Shown here in pieces: positions 8,009 to 25,245 of a stretch of DNA of 43,528 nt. The position numbers and the translations under genes were made by a program. The stretch is from NCBI GenBank assembly GCA_037382465.1, contig JARRPX010000010.1, forward strand, positions 1 to 43,528, given 5' to 3'. The stretch's first letter is position 1. Every line of letters starts with the position of its first letter. Source of the stretch: Anaerolineales bacterium (GTDB lineage: Bacteria; Chloroflexota; Anaerolineae; Anaerolineales; E44-bin32). The notes under the pieces are model-generated. The model did no database searches, was not told the DNA's origin, and worked only from the letters and a program-made list of their open reading frames with translations.

Positions 8009-8719
8009 TCAGATGTGACTGCCGTCCTGCGCCTCGTAATCGACCCAGGCGTTCGCCATCATGGCGTCGTCCTCCAGCTGCAGATCGTTCAGCTTTTGTT
8101 CCAGATGGTCGATACGTTCGGTAAGCGCCTGCAGCCGCTCCATGGTGAGATCGGGCAACCGGTCGTGACGCAGATCCTCCGGCTGTGGCTCGGATAGCTG
8201 TACCCCGTTGCGGCTGCGAATCCTGCCAGGTACACCGACCACCACGGAGCGGGGTGGAATGTCCTTCACCACCACCGAGTTTGCGCCGATACGGCTGTGG
8301 GCGCCGATGCGGATCGGTCCCAGGATCTGTGCCCCGGCGCCGACGACGACGTGGTCTTCCAGCGTGGGGTGGCGCTTGGTTTTTTTGAAACTGACGCCGC
8401 CCAGGGTCACGTTGTGATACAAGGTGACGCAGCTGCCGATCTCGGAGGTTTCCCCGATGACCGTGCCCATGCCGTGGTCGATGAAGAAGCCGGGACCGAT
8501 GACTGCCGCGGGGTGGATTTCGATTCCCGTCAGCCAGCGGTTGAAGTCGCTCAGGCCGCGGGCGACGAGCTTCAAACCTTTGCCCCACAGCCAGTGCGCC
8601 AGCCGGTGCATCCAGATGGCGTGGAATCCCGGGTAAAAGAGGACGATCTCCAGGGCGTAGCGGGCTGCGGGATCGCGCTCCAGAGCGGCGCGAATGTCTT
8701 CGCGAAGCGTAGTAAACAT
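8009..8719 (-). CDS. cysE: Serine O-acetyltransferase
   Basis: 236 residues. It transfers acetyl from acetyl-CoA to L-serine, giving O-acetylserine for cysteine synthesis. The N-terminal helical part ([20 protein letters not shown]) leads into a left-handed beta-helix of hexapeptide repeats. Catalytic-type motifs are [18 protein letters not shown] and LYHNVTLGG, followed by [12 protein letters not shown] chose the ATG at 8719 because GGAGAAGG lies just upstream; the frame extends seven codons further. A C-terminal tail of about 60 residues is unlike the short tail of the Escherichia coli enzyme, so tail-mediated docking to CysK is uncertain. It follows cysK by 13 bases and must share its leader and attenuator. 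Confidence 0.95.
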
Positions 8720-8732
8720 GATCCTTCTCCGG

Positions 8733-9668
8733 TCAATCACGCAGATCGGCGAAGAGCGGGGTGCTTAAGTAACGCTCTCCGTAGGATGGCACGATGGCGA
8801 CGATGCGTTTCCCGGCGTTTTCGGGACGCGAAGCGATTTTCACCGCTGCGTGAATGGCGGCTCCCGAGCTGATTCCCACCAGGATGCCTTCCTCTTTCGG
8901 CATGCGTCTGGCCATGGCGAACGCTTCTTCGTTCGACACCGTCACCACCTCGTCGATCAAACTGGTATCCAGCACTTTGGGGATGAAGCCGGCGCCGATG
9001 CCCTGAATCTTGTGCGGGCCCGGTTTGCCGCCGGAGAGCACTGGCGATCCTTCAGGTTCGACCGCGACGATCTGCACGTCGGGGTTGCGTTCTTTCAACA
9101 CCTGGCCGACGCCGGTGATCGTGCCGCCGGTCCCAACGCCCGCGACGAAGAAGTCGATCTTTCCGTCTGTGTCGCGCCAGATTTCCTCCGCCGTCGTACG
9201 GCGATGGACTTCCGGGTTGGCCGGATTTTCAAACTGCTGCGGAATGAAATAGCGTTTATCCCCGGCGGCCATTTCCTGGGCTTTGTCTATTGCCCCTTTC
9301 ATGCCCTCCGATCCGGGTGTGAGGATCAATTCCGCGCCGAACGCTTTCAGCAGCATCCTGCGCTCGATGCTCATCGTGTCCGGCATCACCAGTGCGCAGT
9401 GATAGCCCTTCGCGGCAGATACCATGGCCAGGCCGATGCCCGTGTTTCCGCTCGTGGGCTCGAGGATGATCGTATCCGGCTTGATCTTCCCCGCCTTTTC
9501 GGCTGCGGTAATCATGCTCAATGCGATCCGGTCCTTGACGCTCGAACCCGGATTCTGAAACTCCAACTTCACCAGTACTTCGGCCTTTGCACCTTCAGTC
9601 ACCTTATGCAGGCGCACGAGTGGGGTGTTGCCGATGAGTTCTGTAACATTATCTGCAATGGCTGACAT
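8733..9668 (-). CDS. cysK: Cysteine synthase (O-acetylserine sulfhydrylase)
   Basis: 311 residues, the usual length. This PLP enzyme converts O-acetylserine and sulfide to cysteine. The PLP lysine lies in [11 protein letters not shown], the substrate-binding loop is PTSGNTGIG, and the phosphate-binding glycine loop is [10 protein letters not shown]. The start at 9668 ([20 protein letters not shown]) has AAAGGGAG 9 bases upstream. It is the first structural gene of cysK-cysE. Upstream lie a cysteine-containing leader peptide and an intrinsic terminator, so expression is probably induced by lack of charged tRNA-Cys. Confidence 0.97.
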
Positions 9669-9711
9669 TTTATTTTTCTCCCTTTGGGTCGATACCTCGG
9701 TAAAGCGCTAC

Positions 9712-9754
9712 GAAAAACAAAAGACTCATCTGGAGTGTTCCATTCGATGAGTCT
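9712..9754 (-). terminator. Attenuator terminator in the cysK leader
   Basis: On the minus strand AGACTCATC (9754-9746) pairs perfectly with GATGAGTCT (9730-9722), followed by TTTGTTTTT (to 9712). It lies 44 bases before the cysK start, after the leader peptide. A competing pairing exists: CGATGAG (complement of 9845-9851) with CTCATCG (complement of 9745-9751), which destroys the terminator's left arm. Confidence 0.8.
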
Positions 9755-9843
9755 CGGGTTTCTTAATCGGACGTGATGGAAATAGATTCTCGAAAATTCC
9801 AGCCGATATTCGATTGTTTTTAATAACAAACTACCCTGCGATG

Positions 9844-9942
9844 CTCATCGCTCGGCTCAATGGAAAGCAGGCAAGTCCGGCGTTTGGCCGGTACAATGCC
9901 TGCTAAAGACAGGAGCAGACGTGAGCGATCAGGTTCAGGGTA
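9844..9942 (-). promoter_or_regulatory. Leader RNA fold that sequesters the cysK antiterminator
   Basis: On the minus strand ATCGCTC inside the leader peptide (9929-9923) pairs with GAGCGAT (9853-9847). An outer CTACCCTG/CAGGGTAG pair (about 9942-9935 with 9838-9831) and an inner GCAGGCA/TGCCTGC hairpin (9903-9897 with 9874-9868) stabilise it. When formed, this fold hides the CGATGAG antiterminator strand, so termination follows. A ribosome stalled on the Cys codons would cover ATCGCTC and release it. Confidence 0.6.
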
Positions 9943-9956
9943 GGATTGTTTTTCAT
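9903..9956 (-). CDS. Cysteine leader peptide (17 aa) of the cysK-cysE operon
   Basis: The peptide is MKNNPTLNLIAHVCSCL. Its last four codons before TAG are TGC, TCC, TGT and CTT, giving two cysteines around a serine; cysteine is the product of the operon and serine its precursor. It starts about 20 bases after the predicted transcription start and precedes the structured leader and terminator. It has no protein function of its own in this model. Ribosome stalling at the Cys codons would let transcription continue into cysK. The peptide is too short for ordinary gene calling; support comes from its position, codon content and matching RNA folds. Confidence 0.75.
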   Translation of the reverse strand: MKNNPTLNLIAHVCSCL

Positions 9957-9982
9957 TATTCGAACGCAGTCCCTTGATTCAA

Positions 9983-10011
9983 AGTCTACCGAAAGGGGTC
10001 TGAATTGTCAA
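9983..10011 (-). promoter_or_regulatory. Sigma70-like promoter of cysK-cysE
   Basis: On the minus strand TTGACA (10011-10006), a 17-base spacer and TAGACT (9988-9983). It overlaps the 3' end of lysK, and the lysK stop codon TAG is part of the -10 element. Confidence 0.8.
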
Positions 10012-11116
10012 ACGCAGCCTTCGACTCGCCGCAGCACTCCTGAAGCAATTTCTCCAACGTGAGTCGAACGACGTCGATCGAGCGCTGGAACTCATTCAGA
10101 TCGAGGTGTTCCTGCGGCGTGTGGTCCAAGCTCGAATCTCCGGGTCCGTAGGCCGCGATGGGGCAGTTCCAAACCGGTGCGACGATGTTCATGTCCGACG
10201 TTCCGGTTTTGTTGACGAAACGCGGTCGGCCGCCGTTGGAGCGGATCGCCTGCAGCAGGGCCCGTGTGAGGAAGGTGTTCTTCTCGGCCACGTGGCTGAC
10301 CTCGCGTCTCGAAAATTCGAGACGTGCCGTCCCATTCAAGGCGCGCAAGTCGTTTTCCAGTCGCTCGAGCGGCAGGTCGGGTGGCAAACGGAACACCAAC
10401 TGCATATCGGCCTGGCCATAGCAGCCCCTTTGATGGGTATTCAAACTGCGCAGCGAAGCGTCAAGACGATCGAAGACTCCGGGGCGGTCGCGGTTGAAAT
10501 CGTCTTCGTAGCGCTGCACTTCTTGCCAGAAACGAAAGGCGCATTCTGCGGGGGTCTGGAGCGGCGCAGCGGAATGCGCCAGCGCACCGGTAAAAACCCA
10601 ACGCAGCATGAGATGACCCTTGTAGCCCAGGGTGATTCTGTCCCAGCTGCTCGGTTCACCGATCAAACAGGCCTTCGGTTGAAAGATTTTCAGGGCGTTT
10701 CGAGCGCCGCGGCTGTCCGTTTCCTCACCGGTGGCTCCGATGACGATTACTCGGGTGCCGCTGGGTGGTTCCACCTGCGTGGCGGCGATGATGAACGCCG
10801 CCAGTGGGCCTTTGGCGTCCACACTGCCCCGGCCGTAGAGCACCCGGCCGTCGACGCGTACCGGGATTTCCCCGGGTACCGTGTCGATGTGGCCCAGCAG
10901 CACGATGTCCGTTTCGCCCTCGCCGCGGATGCCCACGACGCTGTTGGTTCGATCGACGTAGGCGCGCATGCCGTGATCGCCCATCCAATGCGCCAGGAAC
11001 AGGGCCGCAGTGGCTTCGTCGCCGGATGGGCTGGGGATGGATACCAGGTCGTGGATCAAGCGTTCGCGCTCATCGAGCAGCGCTGCCTCGCTTCGGGTCG
11101 GTGCGAATTCAACCAC
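9986..11116 (-). CDS. lysK: [LysW]-lysine/ornithine hydrolase (M20 family)
   Basis: 376 residues. It cleaves lysine (or ornithine) from the C-terminal glutamate of the LysW carrier, the last step of the pathway. Metal-ligand motifs of M20 peptidases are present: [18 protein letters not shown] with the bridging aspartate, the catalytic pair in [18 protein letters not shown], and a late histidine in DHTPQEH. It starts with GTG at 11116, overlapping the lysJ stop by 8 bases, with GAGG upstream. It is the last gene of the lysWXYZJK operon; the cysK promoter lies in its 3' end. Whether it acts on lysine only or on both products cannot be told from sequence. Confidence 0.92.
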
Positions 11117-12326
11117 CGTAAACCTCTTCCAACGCCTCCATGAAGGTCGTCCGGATTCGTTCCAGATCCCCTTCCGGGATGCTCAAAGGCGGCAGAAGCC
11201 GCACCACGGTCGTTCCGGCGGGTATTGCGAGCACGCCGTTTTCTGCCATGGCCTGCAGGACGGGAGTGGCGCGTCTGCGCAGCTCGATGCCGATCATCAG
11301 GCCGCGGCCGCGCACTTCGCGGATCAGCGGATGCTCGATCGAACGCAGAGAATCGAGAAACCGTTCGCCGACGTCCGCTGCTCGTTCGGGCAAGCTCTCC
11401 GCTTCGAGGACCTGAAGCGTGGCGTTCGCCGCAGCACAGACGAGCGGGTTGCCGCCAAAGGTGCTCCCGTGGGTGTGTGGTGGAAATGTCCCCAGGTCGG
11501 ATCGCCAGGCCAGGGCACCCATCGGCAGTCCGCCGGCGATGCCCTTACCGAGACAGATGAGGTCGGGGACGACGTCGTGATGTTCGTAACAGAACCAGCG
11601 TCCGGTGCGGCCCAATCCGCTTTGGATCTCGTCGAAGACGAGCAGTGCGCCGCGTTCGCTGCAAAGCGTGCGTAGTCCGCGGAGGAATTCATCCTCGATG
11701 GGATTGATGCCGCCTTCGCCCTGGAGCAATTCGACGATCACTGCGGCGGTGGAATCATTAATTGTGGCTCGCGCCGCCTCGAGATCGTTGAAGGGAACGT
11801 GTCCGAAGCCGGGTACGAGCGGCACAAACGGTTCGCGATACTTCGCGCGCCACGTTGCGGACAGGGCACCGAGCGTCCGGCCGTGGAAACAGCCTTGCAT
11901 GGCGACGATGCCAGGACGTTGAGTCAGGGCGCGCGAGAGTTTGAATGCGGCTTCGACCGCTTCCGCGCCCGAGTTGCACAGGAAATAGCGGCCGAATCTG
12001 GGCGCCAGGTGGGCCTGCAGGGATTCGTACAGACGGGCGCGTTGATCGTTGTAGAAAATTTCGGGACAGGTGACGACGCGCTCGTATTGGCGGGTGATTG
12101 CCTCCAGGATGGCCGGATGCCGGTGTCCCAACAGGCAGACTCCGTGGCCGCCGACCGCGTCGATGTACGCTTTCCCTTCGGCGTCGATCAAATGTGCGCC
12201 CTCTGCGGCGACGATGGCGATGGGCCGCTTTCCGTAAGCGCCGGATGTGTGCAGATCCTCGGAAGCGAGGATATCTGCTTGATTTGCAGCGTCTGCTGCA
12301 GCGTGTAGGACGATTTCGTTAAGCAA
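11109..12326 (-). CDS. lysJ: [LysW]-aminoadipate semialdehyde/glutamate semialdehyde transaminase
   Basis: 405 residues from a TTG start. This class-III PLP aminotransferase converts the LysW-bound semialdehyde to the LysW-bound amine. Motifs include the PLP phosphate-binding NSGAEAVEAAFKLSR, the aspartate in LLVFDEIQSGLGRTG, and the PLP lysine in CLGKGIAGGLPMGA. No ATG gives a sensible N-terminus. TTG at 12326 has GGAGGAGG 8 bases upstream and overlaps the lysZ stop by 8 bases, which decides the start. The family (ArgD/LysJ) is certain; LysJ is assigned from the operon. Confidence 0.92.
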   Translation of the reverse strand: MLNEIVLHAAADAANQADILASEDLHTSGAYGKRPIAIVAAEGAHLIDAEGKAYIDAVGGHGVCLLGHRHPAILEAITRQYERVVTCPEIFYNDQRARLYESLQAHLAPRFGRYFLCNSGAEAVEAAFKLSRALTQRPGIVAMQGCFHGRTLGALSATWRAKYREPFVPLVPGFGHVPFNDLEAARATINDSTAAVIVELLQGEGGINPIEDEFLRGLRTLCSERGALLVFDEIQSGLGRTGRWFCYEHHDVVPDLICLGKGIAGGLPMGALAWRSDLGTFPPHTHGSTFGGNPLVCAAANATLQVLEAESLPERAADVGERFLDSLRSIEHPLIREVRGRGLMIGIELRRRATPVLQAMAENGVLAIPAGTTVVRLLPPLSIPEGDLERIRTTFMEALEEVYGG

Positions 12327-13134
12327 ACCAGGTTCCTCCTCCGGCGAGCGCAGCCTGCAGCGGTTGCGGGCGTCGTCCGTCGATGATAGCGGCCTGCGCG
12401 ACACCGTTTTCCAGCGCTTCGCGCACGCTCAAGACTTTGTGTTTCATCTGGCCATCGGCCCAGGACATGGCCGTGTCCAGCTGTCCGCGCGGTACCACAT
12501 GCACCAGACTGGATTGATCTTCACAGTCGCGATACAGCCCGACGACGTTGGAAAGCATCAAGAGCATGTCGGCCGCAAGCGCTGCGGATACCGCTGCGGC
12601 GGCGCGATCGCCGTTGACGTTGAGATAGCCATCCGTTTCGCTGTAGGCCAAGGGCGGAATCACGGGTACCATGCCCTGGTCCAGGATGCTCTGGATGCGA
12701 TCCCGGTCGACTCCGATGAGACTACCGGAGTAGTCGTCATGAATCACGCGGATGCGTCCGTCGATCACGGCGCGGATGGCGCTTTTCCGCTCCCCGCGCA
12801 GGACGCAGGCTTCCGTTGTGCCGAGGCTCAGCGTCTGTACCCCGAAACCGTTCAGTTCGCGGCAGATGTCGCTGTTGAACGAAGTCACTGCGTCCACAAA
12901 GATATCGCGCATCGCGGCGTCCGTGTAACGGCTGACGAAGTTGGACGGCGAGCGCAGGTACTGCGGCGGATGGCCCATTTCGTTGGCGAGTTGATTGGCG
13001 CGCTCCGAACCGCCGTGCACCAGGACGATGCGCTGGCCCTGGGCGATCATGGCGGCGATGTCCTCGCAGATCGGACGGAGTTGGATATCTCGGGCGCCCC
13101 CGATTTTGATGACGATGAGACGATTGTTTTCCAT
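12319..13134 (-). CDS. lysZ: [LysW]-aminoadipate (or glutamate) kinase
   Basis: 271 residues. This amino acid kinase phosphorylates the LysW-bound aminoadipate. Visible motifs are the N-terminal IVIKIGGAR, VLVHGGSERANQLA in the phosphate-binding region, and YLNVNGDRAAAAVSAAL plus LMLSNVVGLY near the nucleotide site. ArgB/LysZ are close relatives; the neighbours fix the call. I chose ATG 13134 because GGGAG precedes it by 6 bases; ATG 13146 has its AGGAA directly abutting. Its stop overlaps lysJ. A gap of 43 bases separates it from lysY. Confidence 0.92.
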   Translation of the reverse strand: MENNRLIVIKIGGARDIQLRPICEDIAAMIAQGQRIVLVHGGSERANQLANEMGHPPQYLRSPSNFVSRYTDAAMRDIFVDAVTSFNSDICRELNGFGVQTLSLGTTEACVLRGERKSAIRAVIDGRIRVIHDDYSGSLIGVDRDRIQSILDQGMVPVIPPLAYSETDGYLNVNGDRAAAAVSAALAADMLLMLSNVVGLYRDCEDQSSLVHVVPRGQLDTAMSWADGQMKHKVLSVREALENGVAQAAIIDGRRPQPLQAALAGGGTWFA

Positions 13135-13177
13135 GTTTGCTCCCATTTCCTGTAAAGTGCTTTCCGTGCGTGAGCGT

Positions 13178-14215
13178 TCAGATGGGATGTAGGCCCGGGA
13201 ATTCCAGTCCCAGGCGTTCATCGAAACCGAACATCAAATTCATGGCCTGAACGGCAGTGCCCGAACCGCCTTTCATTAAATTATCCAGCGCGGCGATGAC
13301 GATCAACAGGTTCGCTTCTTGATCGTATGCAAAACCGATGTCGCAGTAATTCGAGCCGGAAAGGATCTTGGGCTCGGGGTAGCGGTAGCCACCACTGCGC
13401 TCCGCCACGAGGCGGATGAAAGGCTCCTGCTGATACGCCTGGCGGTAGCAGGCCCAGACGTCCCGAAGCTCTTCCACCTGCGCATTTTCGTTCAGGAAAC
13501 AATGTGCAGTGAGGTGTGCGCCGCGGACCAGTTCGATGGCGGTCATGGTGAGATGAATGGGGAAACCGCCCAGTTCCTGTTCGACTTCGGCCAGATGGCG
13601 GTGCCCGCTGGGGCTGTAGACGCGCACCACGCCGCTGCGTTCGGGGTGGTGCGAGCCCGGATTGACGGAAGCTCCGGCCTCCGAAGATCCGACTTTCACT
13701 TCCGCCGTGACCCGCTCGAGCCATCCGGCGTCGGCGAGCGGCCCCAGCGCAAGGTTAATCAGCGTGGCGTTGCAGCCGACTCCGGAAGCATACTGCGCTT
13801 CCTTTAATTCATCGCGATGGCGTTCCGGCAATCCGTAAACGAAGCGCGCCAACCAATCCGGCGCGGGGTGTTCCCATTCGTACCATTTCGGATAGGCTTC
13901 TTTACGGCGCAGCCTGAAATCGGCGGAACAGTCGATAATGCGCTCGGCCAACTGCGCATAACGCTCGATGTCCGCTGCAACCTCGCCGTGGGGAAGGGCG
14001 AGGAAGAGCACATCACAGTGCTGAAGATCGTCTGCGTGGCAGTAGCGTAGACCGGTAAAGCCGCGCATGTTGGGGTGCGTGCTGTGAAGGTAGCGGCCGA
14101 TCTGGCTGCGGGAGGAGACCTGCGCCAATTCCACCTGGGGGTGCAGCGTGAGTATACGTATCAATTCACCGCCCAGGTAACCCGATCCACCGACGATCGC
14201 AGCCCGGATACTCAT
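13178..14215 (-). CDS. lysY: [LysW]-aminoadipate/glutamyl phosphate reductase
   Basis: 345 residues, ArgC family. It reduces the LysW-bound acyl phosphate to the semialdehyde with NADPH. The N-terminal Rossmann motif is AAIVGGSGYLGGEL, the catalytic cysteine lies in ASGVGCNATLIN, and a late motif is LDNLMKGGSGTAVQAMNL. A conserved histidine appears in GSHHPERSGVVRVYSPSGHRH. The ATG overlaps the lysX stop by 4 bases (ATGA). Family membership is clear; LysY rather than ArgC follows from the LysW and LysX genes. Confidence 0.93.
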   Translation of the reverse strand: MSIRAAIVGGSGYLGGELIRILTLHPQVELAQVSSRSQIGRYLHSTHPNMRGFTGLRYCHADDLQHCDVLFLALPHGEVAADIERYAQLAERIIDCSADFRLRRKEAYPKWYEWEHPAPDWLARFVYGLPERHRDELKEAQYASGVGCNATLINLALGPLADAGWLERVTAEVKVGSSEAGASVNPGSHHPERSGVVRVYSPSGHRHLAEVEQELGGFPIHLTMTAIELVRGAHLTAHCFLNENAQVEELRDVWACYRQAYQQEPFIRLVAERSGGYRYPEPKILSGSNYCDIGFAYDQEANLLIVIAALDNLMKGGSGTAVQAMNLMFGFDERLGLEFPGLHPI

Positions 14216-15090
14216 ATCTGCGCCTCCCGAACGGCGGCACTTTCCGCTGCCGTCTGGAGCGCGAACTCCACGATCGCTGCGGGGATGTCGACCCCCGTGG
14301 GCTCGATGCTGTTGCGGAATTCCATCGAGTGGTTGACTTCGTTGACCAGGTAGCCGGCGTCCGTTTCAAAGAGATCGATGGCGACGATTCCGCCGCCCAC
14401 GGCGGCTGCGGCGCGTTGGGAGATGTCAGCGATTTCCCCGCTGATCTCGCAATTGCTGGCTACGCCGCCGCGCGCCGTGTTGGTGATCCAATGTTCGGAC
14501 GTGCGGTAGATGGCGCACAACGCCTGGCCGCCCACGACGAACGAGCGGATGTCACGGCCGTTGGGTTTGCGGACGAATTCCTGGACGTAACCGGTGTGGT
14601 AGGGATAATTGCCCAGCGTGAAGCGATGTTCCAGGATCGCTTCCGCCGATTCTCGATCGTTGACTTTGGTCACCAGACGCCCCCACGAACCGGTTAGCGG
14701 TTTGAGAACGGCAGGATAACCCTGATTCTCGATCGCTTGCAGAATCGAATCTTCCGTGAAGGCAATGCTGACCTGCGCCTGCGGAACGGAATGGCGCGCC
14801 AGCGCCAGCGTTGTGCTGAGTTTGTCGCTGCAGGTGCTCGCAGTGTGAAAATTGTTCAGAGTCGGAACCCCCCAGGCTTCCAGGATCTGCAGCGTGGTGA
14901 GCGTGCGGGAGCTGCTGATGCTGCGTTCGAGGATCAGATCGTACGCCAGCCAACGCGGGTCCGGATCGAGGGGATTGAGGATGAACTCCCCGTCGTTGAA
15001 CACGTCGATCTGGATATCGCGCGCTTGAAACGCTTCCATGAGAAGCTTTTCCTCGCGCCGGACCCTCGAGACGATCATGCCGATCTGCAT
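14212..15090 (-). CDS. lysX: LysW-aminoadipate (or LysW-glutamate) ligase, ATP-grasp
   Basis: 292 residues. It attaches alpha-aminoadipate (or glutamate) through its amino group to the C-terminal glutamate of LysW, protecting it through the pathway. ATP-grasp signatures include VLKPLTGSWGRLV, VQEFVRKPNGRDIRSFVVG, the NTARGG motif, and the metal-binding VAIDLFETDAGYLVNEVNHSMEFRNS. The Ala-Ser-Asn triplet after NTARGGV lies where, as I recall, LysX and ArgX differ; I do not rely on it for specificity. It starts one base after the lysW stop. Confidence 0.93.
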   Translation of the reverse strand: MQIGMIVSRVRREEKLLMEAFQARDIQIDVFNDGEFILNPLDPDPRWLAYDLILERSISSSRTLTTLQILEAWGVPTLNNFHTASTCSDKLSTTLALARHSVPQAQVSIAFTEDSILQAIENQGYPAVLKPLTGSWGRLVTKVNDRESAEAILEHRFTLGNYPYHTGYVQEFVRKPNGRDIRSFVVGGQALCAIYRTSEHWITNTARGGVASNCEISGEIADISQRAAAAVGGGIVAIDLFETDAGYLVNEVNHSMEFRNSIEPTGVDIPAAIVEFALQTAAESAAVREAQI

Positions 15091-24886: not shown

Positions 24887-24926
24887 AATAAATAAACCCT
24901 CTCTCATCGTTGGGGACGAGAGAGGG
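24887..24926 (-). terminator. T-box terminator of the trp leader
   Basis: On the minus strand CCCTCTCTCGTC (24926-24915) pairs with GATGAGAGAGGG (24908-24897), one G-T pair, followed by TTTATTTATT. Its left arm overlaps the 3' end of the T-box sequence, as in standard T-box switches. Confidence 0.85.
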
Positions 24927-24974
24927 TTCCCGTGGTGCCACCCCAGTTAGGCTCGATGTTCCCGGGTACCTATG

Positions 24975-25001
24975 AAAAAACCCGCCGGTGACGACGACGG
25001 G
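24975..25001 (-). terminator. Extra terminator-like hairpin nested in the T-box
   Basis: On the minus strand CCCGTCG (25001-24995), a loop and CGGCGGG, followed by six T (24980-24975). It is enclosed by ATGTTCCC/GGGAACAT (25010-25003 with 24963-24956), i.e. it forms the tip of stem III. It may act as a second, upstream termination point. Confidence 0.5.
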
Positions 25002-25245
25002 TGGGAACATGCCAGCCTCACTTATTCCGGTACGGCGATGATGCGATCATCGCTTATACCTTCTGCCTCGATAACGGCGGCTTTCCGGCGCGGACTACTC
25101 GGTTTCAACCTTTCGGCCGGCAGCTCTGGGGTCCATTCTCCGCTGGCGTCGGGGCGGGATTCTCATCCATCTCCCGCTTTCTGTGCCTTCGTTTCAGCAG
25201 ATACTCTTCCCCTTCACGGCTTTTAGTGGATATTCGGTTAGGACG

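Follow-up and report, generated by a model that had tools for sequence, protein, structure and literature searches.

How is cysteine synthesis controlled in a bacterium whose cysK and cysE genes are preceded by a tiny, cysteine-ended reading frame? The question is raised by one locus in the stretch of DNA analysed here, 43,528 nucleotides from an Anaerolineales bacterium (Chloroflexota; contig JARRPX010000010.1), which we call the window. Two features by which an attenuator is recognized are found before cysK: Cys codons within a short open reading frame (ORF) ahead of cysteine genes, and mutually exclusive pairings that connect those codons with an intrinsic terminator. We suggest, from sequence comparison, that the leader is very probably a ribosome-mediated transcription attenuator sensing the supply of Cys-tRNA(Cys) for cysK-cysE. 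Comparison of the locus with its relatives shows the ORF with its Cys codons, the promoter, pairings that exclude one another and a link to cysteine genes.

The promoter, the 17-residue peptide ending Val-Cys-Ser-Cys-Leu and the terminator with its T-run before cysK-cysE, all named in the preliminary description, were found at the positions given in Table 1. The Shine-Dalgarno spacing of the leader ORF is long, about 13 nt. Transcription starting downstream of 9903, which that description had set against its own reading, is not supported: no consensus promoter was found there on the same strand, and the upstream promoter is kept in 18 of 23 relatives (at least 9 of 12 matches at a near-constant distance; 1.6 loci expected). 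A generic terminator scan of the window did not flag the hairpin at 9754-9722, because the simple pattern used by the scan permits short loops only.

Table 1. Features of the cysK leader and the genes that follow it in the window
Feature	Position	Strand	Remarks
-35 element TTGACA	10006..10011	-	Inside 3' end of upstream gene; TTGAC-like -35 and 17-nt spacer kept in relatives
-10 element TAGACT	9983..9988	-	Spacer to -35, 17 nt; TANACT in relatives at near-constant distance from Cys codon
Leader peptide ORF, 17 codons, MKNNPTLNLIAHVCSCL then stop	9903..9956	-	ATG at 9956, TAG ending 9903; counterparts in relatives end CSCL, CSCP or CICL at the stop
Control codons TGC-TCC-TGT (Cys14, Cys16)	9909..9917	-	TGC 9917-9915, TGT 9911-9909; TGC-N3-TGT in 27/29 loci of the window's type
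Anti-antiterminator outer helix, 5' arm CTACCCTG	9936..9943	-	Inside ORF; fold and comparison
Anti-antiterminator inner helix, 5' arm ATCGCTC	9923..9929	-	Inside ORF; complement GAGCGAT at 9853-9847
Post-stop hairpin P1, GCAGGC...GCCTGC	9867..9903	-	Arms 9903-9898 and 9872-9867; arms co-vary in relatives
Antiterminator strand GCGATGAG	9844..9851	-	Conserved; pairing with terminator 5' arm shows compensatory changes
Anti-antiterminator outer helix, 3' arm CAGGGTAG	9831..9838	-	Partner of 9943-9936
Terminator stem, 5' arm AGACTCATC	9746..9754	-	Window sequence and comparison of relatives
Terminator stem, 3' arm GATGAGTCT	9722..9730	-	Window sequence and comparison of relatives
T-tract TTTTGTTTTT	9712..9721	-	Window sequence; T-rich tract after stem in nearly all relatives
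cysK, cysteine synthase A (regulated gene)	8733..9668	-	TIGR01139 cysK above curated NCBIfam cut-off
cysE, serine O-acetyltransferase	8009..8740	-	TIGR01172 cysE above curated NCBIfam cut-off; 8-nt overlap with cysK

The leader RNA is strongly structured. Its minus-strand fold, a check proposed at the outset, has an energy of -95.3 kcal/mol, compared with a mean of -63.4 for shuffled sequences (z -7.2), and none of 200 shuffles is as stable. The switch had been drawn as a set of 7-bp pairings, in which CGATGAG (9850-9844) is complementary to CTCATCG of the terminator (9751-9745). The complementarity is exact and is conserved with compensatory change in relatives, but the window's copy is the weaker one (its antiterminator core has 7 bp, whereas most relatives have 8-13) and would be unconvincing alone. 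The anti-antiterminator proposed there also stands in part: the ATCGCTC/GAGCGAT arm holds, whereas the Cys codons pair with the antiterminator strand as well and a longer outer helix has to be added. Thus, the element is somewhat bigger than first stated, since the outer helix (9943-9936 with 9838-9831) and hairpin P1, which begins at the final base of the stop codon, belong to it. About 90-100 nt separate the antiterminator strand from the terminator. The antiterminator strand could also form a small hairpin of its own at 9851-9838 (GCGAT-GAGC-ATCGC; GCGA-TGAG-TCGC in many relatives).

We propose the following cycle. RNA polymerase is expected to start near 9976, and a ribosome would translate the leader. 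When cysteine is ample, the ribosome would complete the leader and depart; the leader codons would then pair with the stretch containing the antiterminator strand, the terminator at 9754-9722 would form and transcription would end before cysK. When charged tRNA-Cys is short, a ribosome stalled at Cys14 or Cys16 would cover the leader half of the helix, so that the free antiterminator strand could capture the emerging 5' arm of the terminator and polymerase would read on into cysK-cysE. The steps that we infer are translation of the leader, stalling of the ribosome, termination, and the response to cysteine through Cys-tRNA charging.

Covariation supports this proposal. The regions in front of CysK orthologues were collected from the class, the order and a species-level genome set, and 29 of these loci (the window and 28 others), chosen by sequence anchors, form the set of the window's type. 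The leader-codon/antiterminator pairing, the post-stop hairpin, the antiterminator/terminator pairing and the terminator are all conserved or co-vary in this set, so that the Cys codons and pairings are conserved, with the compensatory changes in relatives that the preliminary description had called for. The helix between the antiterminator and the terminator 5' arm is paired in 85% of cells, while slid controls reach at most 44%; these percentages are inflated because the anchors select for resemblance, a bias that bears less on the swap and double-change counts. Seven pairs of this helix are changed on both sides, with 28 double-change cells against 15.7 in shuffles (0 of 500 as high), and the terminator stem has nine such pairs. 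In two loci all three strands are altered together: GCGGTGAG / CTCACCGC / GGTGAG in L117 and GCAATGAG / CTCATTGC / GCAATGAG in L125.

Swapping partners between loci gives the same picture. The leader-coding region pairs with its own antiterminator domain at -28.7 kcal/mol and with swapped domains at -22.7, and the P1 arms give -17.2 and -13.6, respectively; in neither case were any of 5000 swaps as good. An earlier swap test on all 56 loci with any hairpin had been weak (44/56), because two architectures were mixed, and was repeated on the 29 loci. When 38 aligned sequences are folded together, a helix joins the antiterminator's 5' side to the first Cys codon (its UGC) and the nucleotides that follow; two of its pairs have 12 and 11 double-change cells. 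Both Cys codons are paired in a second alignment from which the window was left out, and a model built from it finds the window at 9921-9839 with an E value of 3.5e-10, the next match having 0.53. By comparison of sequences, then, the Cys codons themselves are part of the anti-antiterminator helix, and RNA pairing accounts for at least part of the constraint on the TGC...TGT order. L112, the closest relative by CysK (82%), was kept out of the counts; inspected by eye, it shows ...TCSCLKR... as the leader, together with GCGATGCGCC and, as the terminator, CTCATCGC.

Stalling at the Cys codons had been predicted to free the antiterminator and block the terminator, and folding models over the 29 loci agree. 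Each nascent leader was folded up to just before the 3' arm of the terminator, with a ribosome footprint masked around the first Cys codon. A mask at -18..+12 raises the mean antiterminator probability from 0.30 to 0.84 (Wilcoxon p 9e-9), with an increase in 22 of the 29 loci. When a 30-nt mask is slid along the leader, the probability peaks at 0.95 for -24..+6 and is about 0.5 once the mask is beyond the Cys codons. For the window alone the values are 0.00 free, 0.08 with the mask at -18..+12 and 0.78 at -24..+6 (Cys14); thus, the outcome for its own switch depends on where the edge of the footprint is set. At full equilibrium the finished terminator of the window outcompetes the antiterminator even with a stalled ribosome, so antitermination would have to be kinetic here, as in other attenuators.

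The leader recurs among related bacteria. The signature TGC-N3-TGT-N5-GCRG lies upstream of 67 of 139 non-redundant Chloroflexota-type cysK orthologues, where shuffles expect 0.25; it is missing from 64 of the 139, does not occur on the opposite strand of these regions and is found in 0 of 51 cysK loci from records named for other phyla. It falls inside short ORFs ending CSCL, CSCP, CICL or CxCLRRG at the stop, and outside the Cys-x-Cys end the peptide is not conserved. Most of the nearest relatives by CysK come from metagenome bins of Anaerolineae. A whole-DNA search for the leader within the genus returned the window's own genome only, and a model search of 400 genomes of the phylum returned three matches, two of them strong; that number reflects the few candidates scored per genome and is no proof of absence elsewhere. 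SAM riboswitches (Rfam RF00162) lie shortly downstream of cysK in two relatives (L008:3469-3567 and L059:4131-4233).

The same leader also precedes a second operon. In a pattern scan that covered 396 genomes of the class, it was found, with the ends TCSCP, TCLCR or SCLCL at the stop, before a gene for a ThiS-family protein (loci L233-L248, L250 and L251-L253). By family matches, this gene is followed by those for a rhodanese-MoeB-like protein, a CysM-like protein and a CysK protein, and in its families and gene order the operon resembles a sulfur-carrier (CysO-type) route to cysteine. The presence of the leader before an independent cysteine operon strengthens the case for cysteine as the signal. 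A JAMM-like protease ORF is apparently located just upstream in L252 and L254.

A sister architecture (for example L101:2752-2994, L187:22-207 and L032:2804-2994; alignment A3) has the peptide MxTCxCLRRG, ending at the stop codon. Here AGGCGGGG after the Cys codons has two possible partners, CCGCCT immediately past the stop and CCCCGC farther downstream, and one or two terminator-like stems lie between the pairing strands and cysK. Judged by sequence, the sensor appears to be the same here but to be joined to a different switch. Two further Cys-rich leader ORFs, ...CMCICLGQG... and ...CMCSCES..., mostly without the signature, precede cysK in L005, L008, L012 and in L067, L188, L189, L194, L200; they are probably other attenuator variants. 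About 170-120 nt before cysK in L040, a Mycobacterium record, an ORF ends HSCCPCCC, which fits the known mycobacterial polycysteine leaders.

Could the hairpin merely end the operon that precedes it, with the peptide and pairings there by chance? The genes at 9986-15090 on the minus strand resemble a LysW-type cluster of the lysine/arginine pathway (ArgC-like, kinase, aminotransferase, M20 peptidase, RimK/LysX-like), and the cysK promoter sits within the 3' end of its last gene. Transcripts of that gene, lysK, would run into the hairpin, since the gene ends at 9986 on the same strand. We rejected this reading on gene context and covariation, and give it next to no chance. The architecture recurs in 28 other loci, and leader, antiterminator and terminator co-vary; among the 23 other loci with enough flanking sequence, cysE is near cysK in 20 and lysK in none, which speaks strongly against a hairpin that serves only to end the upstream operon. 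It is also very improbable that the switch works at translation, by hiding the cysK start, or through Rho. Other cysteine leader peptides do without terminators (PMC1262725), but here the stem, with a T-rich tract behind it, is conserved, co-varies and pairs exclusively with the antiterminator, and the ribosome-binding region of cysK lies outside the pairings.

A different sensor is the remaining alternative: the Cys-x-Cys end of the nascent chain might react to sulfide, thiol, redox or metal and stall the ribosome, in place of a shortage of tRNA-Cys. The switch would then read sulfur status, not tRNA-Cys charging only. Cys-x-Cys spacing, and not runs of Cys, is indeed kept in two operons and two switch architectures. 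However, pairing of both codons in the RNA accounts for at least part of this spacing, the peptide is not conserved elsewhere, and stalling by starvation requires no special peptide, so that we consider such a sensor very improbable.

Attenuation by tRNA-Cys supply, the reading that we prefer, has consequences for how these genomes are interpreted. It adds, with comparative support, a family of cysteine-sensing leader-peptide attenuators to a phylum whose reported RNA regulators are T-boxes and riboswitches. Since two separate routes to cysteine, cysK-cysE and the ThiS-like sulfur-carrier operon, come under the leader, it helps to assign sulfur-metabolism genes in uncultured bacteria. A 17-codon ORF that is unlikely to be annotated is put forward as functional, and cysteine control in these organisms becomes directly testable with a reporter.

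T-box leaders (RF00230) act without a leader peptide, by direct binding of uncharged tRNA. As the window leader would, they use tRNA to gauge the supply of an amino acid and have a terminator under their control. The window leader differs in that it has a peptide and matches no Rfam family: a search of 9700-10020 returned none at E of 1 or below, the T-box covariance model was unmatched, and none reached its gathering score in related leaders. T-box identity was therefore rejected. The window does contain a T-box leader (Rfam RF00230, 101 bits) at 24909-25226 on the minus strand, directly 5' of trpE-trpG-trpD, so that this genome has a T-box for tryptophan and a leader peptide for cysteine. 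This is consistent with the T-boxes reported for ile and trp genes in Chloroflexi (PMC2494555).

The preliminary description had called a peptide attenuator for cysKE unusual, yet leader-peptide control of cys genes has precedent (PMC8632094, PMC1262725). In the part of PMC8632094 that we draw on, the uORFC-8-2 motif upstream of cysS in Rhodobacterales is a predicted Cys leader peptide with an intrinsic terminator, read as ribosome-mediated attenuation. These two elements are shared with the window leader, whereas the motif is alphaproteobacterial, with tandem Cys-Cys at positions 14-15, and that part of the source describes no separate antiterminator strand; the window has Cys-x-Cys before cysK, not tandem Cys before cysS. 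Mycobacterial polycysteine leader peptides likewise come from short ORFs that precede cys operons and have their Cys codons close to the stop (PMC1262725), and are described as cysteine-responsive in the passage of PMC13236596 that cites Canestrari 2020. These ORFs are leaderless and carry Cys codons in runs, and a conserved terminator was not found for them (PMC1262725), whereas the conserved promoter of the window leader implies a 5' UTR and its terminator is conserved.

The cysK family itself is where the claim of novelty stands, as a literature search outside subscription journals returned no description of this cysteine leader family before cysK. Trp/his-type attenuators of Proteobacteria work by alternative pairings of regions 1:2, 2:3 and 3:4, and the window leader has their counterparts in the leader/antiterminator helix (1:2), the antiterminator/terminator-arm helix (2:3) and the terminator (3:4). 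It differs from them in amino acid, phylum and sequence, and in having a hairpin between regions 1 and 2 and the long spacer between 2 and 3. Thus, the cysteine leader attenuator before cysK in Chloroflexota-type bacteria appears to be an undescribed family that uses a textbook type of switch.
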